Source: Prasinococcaceae sp. CCMP 1430 (lineage: Eukaryota > Prasinodermophyta > Palmophyllophyceae > Prasinococcales > Prasinococcaceae). Taken from it: 64,000 nt of DNA. Location: assembly GCA_013416795.1 (NCBI GenBank), contig RQSC01000031.1, positions 6,757-70,756 on the forward strand, read 5' to 3'. Positions 22,818 to 62,422 of this stretch are shown piece by piece. The notes under the pieces are model-generated. The model searched no databases and was not told the origin of the DNA. It saw only the letters and a list, made by a program, of their open reading frames with translations. Every line of letters starts with the position of its first letter. The first letter of the stretch is position 1. The position numbers were made by a program, and so were the translations under genes.

Positions 22818-22818
22818 N
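22818..22818. other. Single N
   Basis: One undetermined base 60 bp before the MRS2-like start codon, in a GGC-rich run. It may be an ambiguous base or an unsized join. Confidence 0.6.
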
Positions 22819-36573: not shown

Positions 36574-39158
36574 ATGGCGTGTGCAAGGGCGGCCGCGGCC
36601 GCGCGCGGGGCGGCGCCCGCGGGGGCGAACGCCGCGGCGCGCGGCCGCGCGCGCAGTGCTGCACCCGCGGCGGGCGGACGCCGACATGGAGCGGGAGCGC
36701 TTCCCAGGCAAGTTTGTCGGCGAGGCGCCGCCCGAGGACATGCCGCTCCACCTGCAGGAGCGCGGGCGCATCAAGACGCCGTGGGACGACGTCAAGGCAG
36801 AACTCGCGGAGAGGTTCGGCACCTCGCCCGAGGCCCTCGAGAAGGCGGGCACGATCACCGATGAGGAGATGGCCAAGGCGTACACAATGATGAAGGTGCG
36901 CAGCCGGGCCGCGGCAAAGGGCAGCGGAGGCTCGGGTGGAGCGCCCGCGCATTCGAGCGCTGCGGAGATCGAAGCGACGCGCCCCCGAGTGACGGCGTGC
37001 GCGCTGACACGCCGCCCGCCGCCAACGGTCCCGCTCCTGGCCTGCGTTGCCGCAGCTTTGCCGCGAGTTCGAGAACGAGTGCAGCCAGTCTTACATGAAG
37101 GGCAACATCCGCGGCTTCATGCACCTTGACAGCGGCCAGGAGTCCGTCCCCGCGCTGCTCGCCGACTCCATCCGCACGGACGACATCAAGCACTCGAACT
37201 ACCGCGACCACTGCCACGCGCTCGCCTCGGGCGTGGACCCCGGCGCGGTGATGGCCGAGCTGTACGGCAAGGACGGGGGCACGTGCCGCGGCACGGGCGG
37301 CAGCATGCACATCCACGATCCCGCCACGAACTTCCAGGGCGGCTGGGGCCTGGTCGCCGAGCAGCTGCCATACGCCGTGGGCGCCGCGCGCTCCATCCAC
37401 ATGGACCGCTGCCTCGGCTACCCGGGTAAGCAGCACCGCCTGCACGAGTTCGATAAGATGGAGAAGGATGACCGCATCTGCGTGGTCTTCCTGGGAGATG
37501 GCGCCGCTCAGAACGGTCGCATGGCCGAGTGCCTAAACGCCGCGTCCAAGGAAAATCTGCCGATCCTCTTCCTGGTTACTGACAACGGCCGCGCCATCAA
37601 CACTTTCACTGGGGACGTTGCGGCCAACCAGGCGGTGTACCGCATGGGCGAGCACTATGGTGTCCCGGGCGCGCTGGTGGACGGCCAGAGCATGGAGGAC
37701 ACGCTCAAAGTAGGCCGCGTGGTGATCGACTACGTGCGCAACGAGGGCCCAGCCATCCTGCAGGTGCACTCCTTCCGCTTCAACGGCCACTCCCCCGCGG
37801 ACCCCGAGCACGAGCGCAACCGCAAGGAGGAAAAGCGCTGGGCGCGCAAGGAGGCCGATCCCATCAAGATTTTCAAGGCGAGCGAGGCCGCCACGCGCAT
37901 CAATATCGAAGAATGCGACGCCGAGGCTGCGAAGATCGTCAAGGCAGCAATTGACTTCGCCGACGCGTCGCCGGACCCGCCCTCGACGCTCGCGCACGAT
38001 TTTGAGTACCCTGACCCGGTGACCACCGACTACGCCGCGCGCGAGCCTGTCGACGGGCTGGCAGTTGCCGAGCTGCTCACCACGAGCGCCAACCCCGCGT
38101 ACGCGCTCGACGCGTTGCGTGCGACCATCGATCAGCTGCGCGCGAAGGCGGCAGACAAGTCGCCCAAGGGCGGCCTGTCGATCGGCGACGCCGTCAACCT
38201 GGCCATCCTCGAGGAGATGTTGCGCGACCCGACGACCACCATCCACGCAGAGGACCTCCAGGCCGGCTCGTCATACAACGTGCCCGCGCACACGCAGCAG
38301 GCCTTCGGTCGCATCCGCGCGTGCGATGAGATCATCGACGAGGGTCACTTCATAGGCAAGGCCATCGGCGAGGCGATGAACGGCTACCGTCCCATTGTGG
38401 AGATGATGAACATGAACTTCGCCATCTACGGCATGCCGGAGCTCTCGTGCGCGGGCGGCATCTACGGGACTACCGGGGGCAAGTTCATCCTGCCCATGAC
38501 CATAATTGGCGCGGGCGGCACGGCCCCCAACCAGTCGCTTGGCTCCGAGCACTCGCAGCCGCTCCACGCGTACATCATGGGCTTCGCTGGCCTCAAGATT
38601 GTGTCGGCAGCGAGCCCCGACGCGGCCTACGGCTTGGTGAAGAGCGCCATCCGGGACAATGGGCCATGCGTGGTGCTTCTGCCCGTCAAGATGATGAAGG
38701 TGAAGGGCGAATGCGACCTCGACGTCTTCTACCCGCTGCATAAGGCGCGCTACCTGCTGCGGGCGCCTGACGCCGCGCTGGCCGCCGGCAAGGGCGTGAC
38801 GCTGCTCACGTACCTGCACGGTGTCAAGGAGGCGCGCGACGCCGTGGCCGAGCTCGGCGATGAGGCCGGCGTCGATCTCATCGAGTTGACCAGCCTGAAG
38901 CCGCTGGACATGCACACCATCCGCGAGTCGCTCTCGCGCACGCACCGGCTGGTCATCCTGGACGAGTCGACGCACTCGGGCGGTGTGGGCGCGACCGTGT
39001 GCGCGCGCGTCTCGGAGGAGTGCTTCGACGAGCTCGACGCGCCGATCATGCGGCTGTGCATGGAGGACGCGCCGGTGCCGTACTCGACGGCCATCGAGAA
39101 GGCCGTGGTGAAGCGCCGCTCGGACGTCGTGGAGGGCATCCGCAGCCTCTTCCAGTAG
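36574..39158 (+). CDS. Fused E1 alpha-beta of a 2-oxo acid (pyruvate-type) dehydrogenase
   Basis: E1 is the thiamine-diphosphate decarboxylase of the mitochondrial or plastid 2-oxo acid dehydrogenase complexes. It normally consists of two polypeptides; here both lie in one 790-residue chain. Proposed exons are 36574-36655, 36708-36895 and 37056-39158. The alpha part has GTGGSMHIHD, the ThDP motif GDGAAQNGRM...VTDN and the loop RFNGHSPADPEHERNRK. The beta part starts near residue 365 (LSIGDAVNLAILEEMLRD) and contains HAEDLQAGSSY, GKAIGEAMNGYRPIVEMM, EHSQPLHAYI and DLIELTSLKPLD. The ATG at 36574 gives an Ala/Arg targeting peptide that reaches the conserved frame through a 52-nt intron. Alternatively MERERF at 36688 could start without it. 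Substrate is inferred as pyruvate. Confidence 0.9.
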
Positions 39159-60521: not shown

Positions 60522-60940
60522 CGCCGCGCCGCCCGTCTGCGCCCCGTCCCGCCCCCCCTCCACTCCCGGCGCCCCACTGCGAGCTGCGCCCCGCTCGGTG
60601 CGCGCGCGCTTCCCCCGCGCCCGCCCGCCGCGTCCGCACGCTCTGGCGTCGCCCCGCCCCTCGCCCCTCGCTGCGCCTCGCTCCCTCCTGTGCGCGCGCT
60701 CGAATTCGGAACGGCAATCGTTCGCGCCAAAACGAATGAAACCCTAACCCTTACTACTGTCGAATGCGTGCATTCCGGCCTGGCTGGACCTACCATCGAT
60801 GATGATGGTACCATGACGGTATAGCCCGCCCCCTTGGTTGGGCGTCATCGCAACCCAAACCTCGGGCGGCCGCCGGTGCCGACGGGGGCCGCGGCTGCCG
60901 CGCCACACTGCCCGCGCGGGCGCGCGCGATCCTCGCGGCG
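60522..60940. other. Spacer upstream of the translocator fragment
   Basis: GC-rich, with a short AT-richer segment at 60700-60790 (GAAACCCTAACCCTTACTACT). The N-terminal half of the translocator was searched for here by eye and is not present. Confidence 0.4.
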
Positions 60941-61460
60941 ATGGGGCCGCTCACGCAGGACGAGGCGATCATGGTGGCGGCCATGGGCGCCGCGGTGGTC
61001 ATCTGGGTGGGCGGCTTCGGCCTGCCGGGCGCCGTGGGCGCCCTGCTGGGGCTCAGCGTCCTGCTGGCGACGGGCGTGCTCTCGTGGGCGGACTGCATCG
61101 ACGAGGAGCCCGGGTGGTCGACGCTCACGTGGTTCTCCATCCTGGTGGGCTACTCCACGGCGCTCAACGAGCTGGGCGTCATCGGCTGGGTCGCAAGCAG
61201 CTGCAGCGGCCTCGTGGCGAGCCTCGGCCTGCCCACCGCCGGCGCGGTGGCGCTCATCCTCGCCGCCTACGCGCTCATCCACTACATGTTCGCCAGCCAG
61301 ACGGCGCACGTCGCCTCGCTCTTCGGCGCCTTCCTGAGCATGATGGTGCTCGCGGGCGGCGCCGGCCTGCCGGCCGCGCTCGCGCTGGGCTTCCTGACCA
61401 ACCTCTTCGGCGGCATCACGCACTACGCCGCGGGCCAGAGCGTGGTCTTCTACAACGCCG
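60941..61460 (+). CDS. DIT1: Plastid 2-oxoglutarate/malate translocator, C-terminal half (partial)
   Basis: A DASS-family dicarboxylate carrier of the plastid inner envelope, which exports malate for 2-oxoglutarate in nitrogen assimilation. Only the second half is visible: MGPLTQDEAIMVAAM, LGLSVLLATGVLSWADCIDE, GWSTLTWFSILVGYSTALNE, LGVIGWVASS, HYMFASQTAHVASLFGAFL, and FLTNLFGGITHYAAGQ. The frame ends at the single N (61461), before the last helices. Upstream the frame is open (RARAILAAMGPLT), as in plant DiT1, so an earlier exon should exist, but none is found before the FAM177 gene. It is truncated at both ends, by assembly or in reality. Confidence 0.75.
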
Positions 61461-61461
61461 N
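61461..61461. other. Single N between two genes
   Basis: One undetermined base. The translocator reading frame stops making sense here and another protein begins mid-sequence right after it, so it probably marks an assembly join of unknown size. Confidence 0.7.
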
Positions 61462-62422
61462 CTCGCCGCGCCGGCGTTTGCGCCTCGGGCGGCGTCCGCG
61501 GCCGCCAAGCGCTTCGCCGCCTCCAAGGCGGGCGGCGAGGTTGCCGGTGCGGGCGCCGCAGCCGCCCCGAAGGCCGCCGAGTCCTGGTGGACGTCCGCAG
61601 CGTGGTGGGGCGGCGCGGGAGCGATCGCCGCGTGGGGCATGACCGGTAGCGCCATATATGACGCGCTCACAGGTGCGCGCGCGCGCGCGCTCCTGCGCGC
61701 GCACCCTGCTGCGAACGCGCGCTGAGAGCGGCGGCGGCTGACCCGTCGCGTCCGTGCGCAAATTGCGTGTTGCCACCCCCCCCCCCACACACACACACCC
61801 TGGCCCGCTCGGCCCGCTGCGCGCAGCTGGCCCGGAGCTCATCTCGCTGCCCATGACTGGCGTCCTCATCGTTTACTCGTCACTGTTCGCGCGGTGGGCG
61901 TGGATCGTCGAGCCGCGCAACCTCGCGCTGTGCGCGTGCCATGCGACCAACGTCGTCGCGCAGTGCAATCAGATCCGGCGCGCGGTGCAGGCCAAGTACG
62001 ACAGTGGCGATCCGGCGGAGCGAGAGGAGGTCATCCTGCAGGGCACGCGGGCGGCGGGCGCGGCGGCCGCGGGTGGCGTGATCATCCTCGGCGCGCCCTC
62101 GCTGCAGGCGTGGCTCGTCGCCGCCGAGCTCGGGCCCATTTCTGCGATAGCCGCGGCGCCGGCGGGGCCCTTCTCGGTCCACTTCTGGGCGCCCATGTCA
62201 AAGTGGTTCATCTCGGGCGCGTCCTTCCTGGAGCTCGACCGGCCGACGGACAAGGTGTCACTGACGCTCTATTCGGCGCTCACGCTCACGGGCCTCTTCT
62301 TCACGCGCTACTCGCTGCTCGTCACGCCGGTGAACTACATGCTCTGCGGCGTCAACGTCGCGCTCTTCGGCAGCTCGGCGTGGCACCTCGGCCGCAAGGT
62401 CAAGGCAGACTACATCGACTGA
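61462..62422 (+). CDS. MPC: Mitochondrial pyruvate carrier, MPC1-MPC2 single-chain fusion (5' partial)
   Basis: MPC1 and MPC2 normally form a heterodimer that imports pyruvate across the mitochondrial inner membrane. Here both lie in one frame. Exons are 61462-61672 and 61827-62422, phase 1, CAG/GTGCGC...GCGCAG; the start is lost at the N. The MPC1-like part is WWGGAGAIAAWGMTGSAIYD, then PELISLPMTGVLIVYSSLFA, RWAWIVEPRNLALCACHATN and VVAQCNQIRRAVQAK. A linker with an extra hydrophobic stretch (GGVIILGAPSLQAWLVAA) follows. The MPC2-like part is SVHFWAPMSKWFISGASFLE, DRPTDKVSLTLYSAL, FTRYSLLVTPVNYMLCGVNV and LGRKVKADYID, then the stop. The HFW of the MPC1 half is degenerate (AWW). Confidence 0.83.

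Follow-up and report, generated by a model that had tools for sequence, protein, structure and literature searches.

Can the mitochondrial pyruvate carrier (MPC), which in human consists of two separate chains, MPC1 and MPC2, be encoded as one polypeptide? This question is raised by a locus in a stretch of 64,000 nucleotides (nt) from Prasinococcaceae sp. CCMP 1430 (assembly GCA_013416795.1, contig RQSC01000031.1), hereafter the window, whose coordinates are used throughout. A first inspection of the letters alone (the sequence-only reading) had placed both subunits in one polypeptide, and our analysis agrees: the open reading frame (ORF) at 61742–62422 on the forward strand contains both MPC-like segments in one frame with no intervening stop, and the Pfam family MPC (PF03650) matches it in two stretches (137.3 bits, E = 2.8e-40), exceeding the curated cut-off of 27. 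The intron and the missing 5′ end described below had gone unmentioned. The locus is very likely a nuclear gene by which an alga encodes its mitochondrial pyruvate carrier as a single chain, with MPC1 and MPC2 joined by an extra transmembrane (TM) helix in a 3+1+3 arrangement, as supported by one spliced frame, two MPC domains, a conserved pocket, and genome searches that returned no separate subunits.

Gene Structure

The gene has two exons (Table 1), the first of which is out of frame with the second until the intron is removed. Splicing yields a product of 268 residues without a start methionine, and the resulting junction (...AIYDALT/AGPELISLP...) is present in a database protein, P0002, that is itself atypical in lacking 15 residues of the MPC1 half downstream of the junction. 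In a Pfam search at E ≤ 10, the exon 2 ORF matched PF03650 only, and the exon 1 piece was without any match. Exon 1 starts immediately downstream of a lone N (61461) and offers no in-frame methionine upstream of TM1; the 5′ end of the gene is therefore missing from the assembly.

Table 1. Exons, intron, and predicted helices of the fused MPC gene
Feature	Position	Strand	Basis
Exon 1, 5′-incomplete: basic, Ala-rich N-terminal extension and first TM helix of the MPC1-like half	61462–61672	+	Splicing; resemblance to P0004 and the C62 paralogue
Intron, 154 nt, GT-AG, phase 1	61673–61826	+	Junction agrees with P0002
Exon 2: remainder of MPC1 half, linker helix, MPC2 half, stop	61827–62422	+	ORF, Pfam, splicing
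TM1, MPC1 half, AWWGGAGAIAAWGM... at the position of human MPC1L HFWGPAFSWG	61597–61671	+	By-eye transfer from P0106 AlphaFold helix 47–71
TM2, MPC1 half (counterparts of Y64 and F68; W in place of F71)	61847–61906	+	Structure-sequence alignments, P0106 model
TM3, MPC1 half (CHATN; His, 61940–61942, equivalent to human MPC1L H86)	61922–62002	+	Alignments, P0106 model
TM4, linker helix, extra hydrophobic segment	62012–62122	+	Hydropathy, P0106 model helix 134–167
TM5, first helix of MPC2 half (FWAPMSKW; Lys, 62201–62203, equivalent to human MPC2 K49)	62177–62227	+	Alignments, P0106 model
TM6, MPC2 half (counterparts of T78 and Y85; F in place of W82)	62261–62320	+	Alignments, P0106 model
TM7, MPC2 half (L96 equivalent; Asn, 62354–62356, equivalent to human MPC2 N100)	62336–62416	+	Alignments, P0106 model

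Relatives and Pyruvate Pocket

A homologue search returned 602 proteins at E ≤ 0.001, of which the best 120 were analysed. All 120 carry both a C[HR]..N motif in the MPC1 half and an HF.AP motif in the MPC2 half, a count that is uninformative on the frequency of separate MPCs because the search was restricted to proteins whose length is 0.55 to 1.75 times that of the query. Named relatives among these 120 include the diatoms Cyclotella, Thalassiosira, Nitzschia, and Cylindrotheca, a pelagophyte, and the chlorophyte Pycnococcus provasolii; at least 11 derive from MMETSP transcripts or are so labelled. The Pycnococcus protein P0004 aligns with 88% of the window ORF at 72% identity and has the same fused layout, although its database name, “mitochondrial pyruvate carrier 2,” does not reflect the MPC1 half. 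In a tree of 121 rows (119 of the 120 homologues, P0002 being omitted, plus the window protein and a paralogue from the same genome), the window protein clusters with the paralogue, P0004, and three unnamed proteins (support 100/96). Judged from this one gene, the host is probably a green alga akin to Pycnococcus.

Residue conservation was scored in an alignment of 119 rows, in which window exon 2 is joined by 118 homologues (of the 120, P0002 was left out for its missing MPC1-half residues, which include the F71 position, and P0095 for an odd N-terminus). Using the pyruvate pocket residues defined for human MPC (PMC12007569), we mapped 11 positions through alignments to human structures; S35 and L38 in TM1 lie outside the query and were not scored. 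Nine of the 11 are identical in the window protein: Y64, F68, L82, and H86 of MPC1L and K49, T78, Y85, L96, and N100 of MPC2. The pocket His of the MPC1 half is kept in 119 of 119 rows, and the Lys and Asn of the MPC2 half are each kept in 118. The two changes, F71 to W and W82 to F, occur in every one of the 119 rows.

The sequence-only reading had also remarked that the MPC1 half has lost HFWGP and that the halves might thus have specialised. The motif is indeed absent, but the altered form is common to the aligned fused relatives (W kept in 104 of 119 rows, with 14 gaps; G in 99, with 14 gaps; P in 2, with 13 gaps) and for that reason gives no sign of specialisation in the window gene.

A search with the C-terminal half alone gave 116 matches. 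At the W82 position, two residues before an RY motif, 91 of these have F, 1 has W, and 4 have another residue, and 20 have no RY motif. Several of the 15 matches inspected are visibly fragments of fused proteins. The only match with W at this position, P0345 (47% identical), resembles a standalone MPC2. As a mark distinguishing fused from separate MPCs, the aromatic replacements appear weak, since the comparison is with human and one standalone-looking protein. Four divergent relatives of the MPC2 half (P0308, P0318, P0321, and P0347), which have HPWPP instead of HFWAP and no RY motif, are possibly a distinct subtype of fused carrier.

Search for Separate Subunits

Whether separate MPC1 and MPC2 genes exist elsewhere in the genome, a check that the sequence-only reading had proposed, was addressed by six-frame searches, exon by exon, of the 24.5-Mb assembly (145 contigs). 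These gave four PF03650 matches, two in the window gene and two in a frame on contig C62, and a standalone MPC2-like query (E ≤ 1) led to the same two fused loci and to no separate subunit gene. A superoxide dismutase query found its target in the same genome, and the search was judged to be working on that ground.

The C62 locus (L001, 1471–2349, reverse strand) is a second fused MPC gene. It lies in one uninterrupted stop-to-stop frame of 292 residues; its N-terminus is basic, and KADKL is repeated in its tail. From residue 46 onward, the two genes share 151 of 220 aligned residues, and their codons are identical at 171, 170, and 131 of 220 first, second, and third positions, respectively. 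Third positions are the least alike, as expected for two genes under protein-level constraint, and together these figures indicate that the fused MPC gene is not a chance feature.

Helix Arrangement

The helix count of the window protein is based on hydropathy and on the AlphaFold model of the relative P0106, which is 70% identical to exon 2. In this predicted structure, each half has three TM helices, and the model supports an arrangement of an MPC1-like half, an extra TM helix, and an MPC2-like half (3+1+3). The structure prediction suggested with the original observation was thus made on a relative, and it gave the fold in question; hydropathy and the model helix likewise support the proposed extra hydrophobic linker segment, which could place the second half in the right topology. 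Among relatives, the linker has a near-constant length, being three residues longer in the window gene, and it is less conserved than the two halves. In a positive-inside count directed at membrane orientation, Lys and Arg are more numerous on the C-terminal membrane side in all 106 usable rows (13 of the 119 were excluded because of gaps). Acidic residues are equally frequent on that side, however, so that the net charge exceeds that of the other side in only 36 of the 106.

In the mechanism that we propose, MPC1 and MPC2 would have become one protein through a single added TM helix, giving seven helices. The linker helix would return the second three-helix bundle to the membrane side of the first, and with the same side restored, the halves could pack as a parallel pseudo-dimer like human MPC1 and MPC2. 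By analogy with human MPC, from which the mechanism is carried over (PMC12007569), the window protein would reside in mitochondria and transport pyruvate coupled to protons by alternating access, with a pocket formed by the His of the MPC1 half and the Lys and Asn of the MPC2 half. The His would be protonated on the acidic side, and Lys and Asn would hold pyruvate.

Competing Explanations

The N immediately upstream of exon 1 shows that the assembly is imperfect nearby, and the fusion might thus be an assembly or gene-model artefact uniting two adjacent genes. However, the join lies within a single uninterrupted exon free of N, and both parts are carried by the paralogue on another contig and by all 120 listed homologues. 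The present results already refute this reading, whose probability we regard as negligible. We consider it quite unlikely that the halves arose by duplication of one four-helix MPC precursor within a single gene and diverged later, rather than by the joining of MPC1 to MPC2. Medrano-Soto et al. (PMC7176098) preferred duplication for 3+1+3 MPC proteins without excluding fusion. Against solved structures, however, the N-terminal half of the window protein matches human MPC1L and MPC1 (best E 3.5e-14) and the C-terminal half matches MPC2 (best E 3e-13), with the best MPC1L chain scoring only 4.0 bits on the C-terminal half. That each half is nearest a different human subunit fits the joining of already distinct MPC1 and MPC2 and speaks against a recent duplication of a single subunit.

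A single gene could also encode one precursor that is imported and then cleaved at or close to the linker, so that the final carrier is an ordinary MPC1/MPC2 heterodimer. Processing is common among mitochondrial precursors, and the lower conservation of the linker agrees with such a cut; a predicted TM helix of near-constant length would be needless in a severed chain, however, and the whole-chain model resembles the SWEETs, which are uncut, so that we regard cleavage as very improbable. Several points do weigh against the single-chain pyruvate carrier. The fused gene lacks its 5′ end. The 3+1+3 model is that of a relative and not of the window protein itself, and a first model reached a predicted local distance difference test (pLDDT) score of 64.0. 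A separate subunit gene split into many small exons could have escaped a six-frame, exon-by-exon search of a genome whose completeness is not given. Moreover, specificity or direction of transport could differ from human MPC because the two pocket aromatics differ, and the authors of the Cyclotella cryptica study suggest that the diatom fused protein may export pyruvate (PMC5124317). The last two points would favor a derived carrier with a main job other than pyruvate import, such as pyruvate export or transport of another monocarboxylate. Yet, both essential charged residues, along with the Asn docked at the ketone (roles as given in PMC12007569), are conserved in no fewer than 118 of the 119 rows, and our genome searches found no other kind of MPC gene to perform import; we regard a derived role as unlikely and favor the single-chain pyruvate carrier.

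Import and Orientation

N-termini were compared in 102 of the 120 listed relatives, those with a Met start and at least 250 residues. They are basic and poor in acidic residues (mean of 5.46 Lys + Arg and 0.62 Asp + Glu per 30 residues), and 89 of the 102 have no acidic residue among the first 20, as in a presequence. Yeast Mpc2 and Mpc3 have no cleavable presequence and use the carrier import route (PMC6945462); given this difference from the presequence-like starts, the fused MPCs may be imported by another route than yeast MPC. A broader and rather doubtful possibility is that fused carriers constitute a subfamily with its own biology, characterized by a presequence-like extension that would imply a switch from TIM22 to TIM23 import and by the two changed pocket aromatics. 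If true, the subfamily would be a natural experiment able to settle the disputed orientation of MPC in the membrane. The N-terminus is placed in the matrix in yeast work (PMC6945462) and in the intermembrane space in 2025 human work (PMC12007569). Fused carriers bear on this question, and the window gene could be of use in testing how MPC is imported and arranged in the membrane.

Relation to Known Carriers

The sequence-only reading had called a single-chain carrier notable. It is not a new kind: MPC fusion is already known and occurs in many algae. Traller et al. 2016 (PMC5124317) reported that MPC1 and MPC2 are apparently both in one gene in C. cryptica (g13004.t1) and other diatoms, and Medrano-Soto et al. 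2020 (PMC7176098) described MPC proteins of seven TM segments, 3+1+3, with MPC1-like and MPC2-like halves. Among the papers listed by our literature searches on fused MPC, none was seen to deal with the fusion in green algae. The accessible text of PMC7699257, PMC7761412, and PMC10909473 has no mention of a natural MPC fusion, and PMC6198282 and PMC5715807 name MPC in their reference lists only.

Like the diatom gene, the window gene carries both parts, and diatom homologues, including C. cryptica P0067, align through both halves. Unlike it, the window gene groups with Pycnococcus and not with the named diatoms. An intron separates the regions encoding TM1 and TM2 in the window gene, and its genome contains a second fused copy; these features may also set it apart from the diatom gene. 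The TCDB entry C5K6B0 (2.A.105.1.8; PMC7176098) is likewise described as having seven helices, with TM1–3 MPC1-like and TM5–7 MPC2-like. The window halves match the human MPC1/MPC2 and MPC1L/MPC2 heterodimers (PDB 9giv, 8yw6, 9mnw, and others) in sequence, and the model matches them in fold. The human carrier is, however, two chains, and the fused form adds the linker helix, W for F71, and F for W82; fused relatives also differ from it by their basic N-terminal extension. The window gene thus departs from the canonical two-chain MPC, defined by separate MPC1 and MPC2 genes, and it has the features of the MPC family (PF03650, SLC54, TC 2.A.105), namely the domain, the pocket residues, and, as predicted from P0106, three helices per protomer. 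The 3+1+3 fold of the P0106 model is common to the SWEETs (AtSWEET13, 5xpd; OsSWEET2b, 5cth) at only 11–14% identity; the SWEET/MtN3 domain (PF03083) is absent from the window protein, in which Pfam finds MPC only.

Because the fusion is already in print, the gain here is modest. Fused carriers would fix MPC1 and MPC2 at 1:1, and a single linker helix would require two parallel three-helix halves, which is in line with the human structures published in 2025 and speaks against an older proposal, cited in that paper, of two helices for MPC1 (PMC12007569). A fused carrier would also offer expression and structural studies an MPC encoded by one gene.

Other Features of the Window

The window also encodes, at 37008–39158 on the forward strand, a 716-residue single-chain E1alpha-E1beta dehydrogenase (E1_dh, Transket_pyr, and Transketolase_C). 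Its nearest solved structures are pyruvate dehydrogenase E1, and its best NCBIfam matches are pyruvate dehydrogenase E1 models, all below their curated cut-offs. It is a second normally heteromeric, and probably pyruvate-handling, protein made as one chain. At least 818 relatives were scored, and the best 120 include named proteins of Bathycoccus, Nannochloropsis, Guillardia, and Tribonema. A literature search for a fused E1 dehydrogenase that demanded most query words together found no paper. The genome has a second fused-looking E1 copy (contig C2, 72266–73903) and an E1alpha-like frame of ordinary size (contig C81, 394 residues), and the fused E1 is thus additional to the ordinary form.

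Directly upstream of the fused MPC gene, at 60806–61460 on the forward strand, a partial DASS/Na_sulph_symp transporter (profile positions 255–435 of 472) breaks off at the N at 61461. That this gene lacks its end and the MPC gene its start at this point suggests that unassembled sequence is hidden there. Two more single-base Ns in the window, at 22818 and 52409, may likewise be hidden assembly joins.
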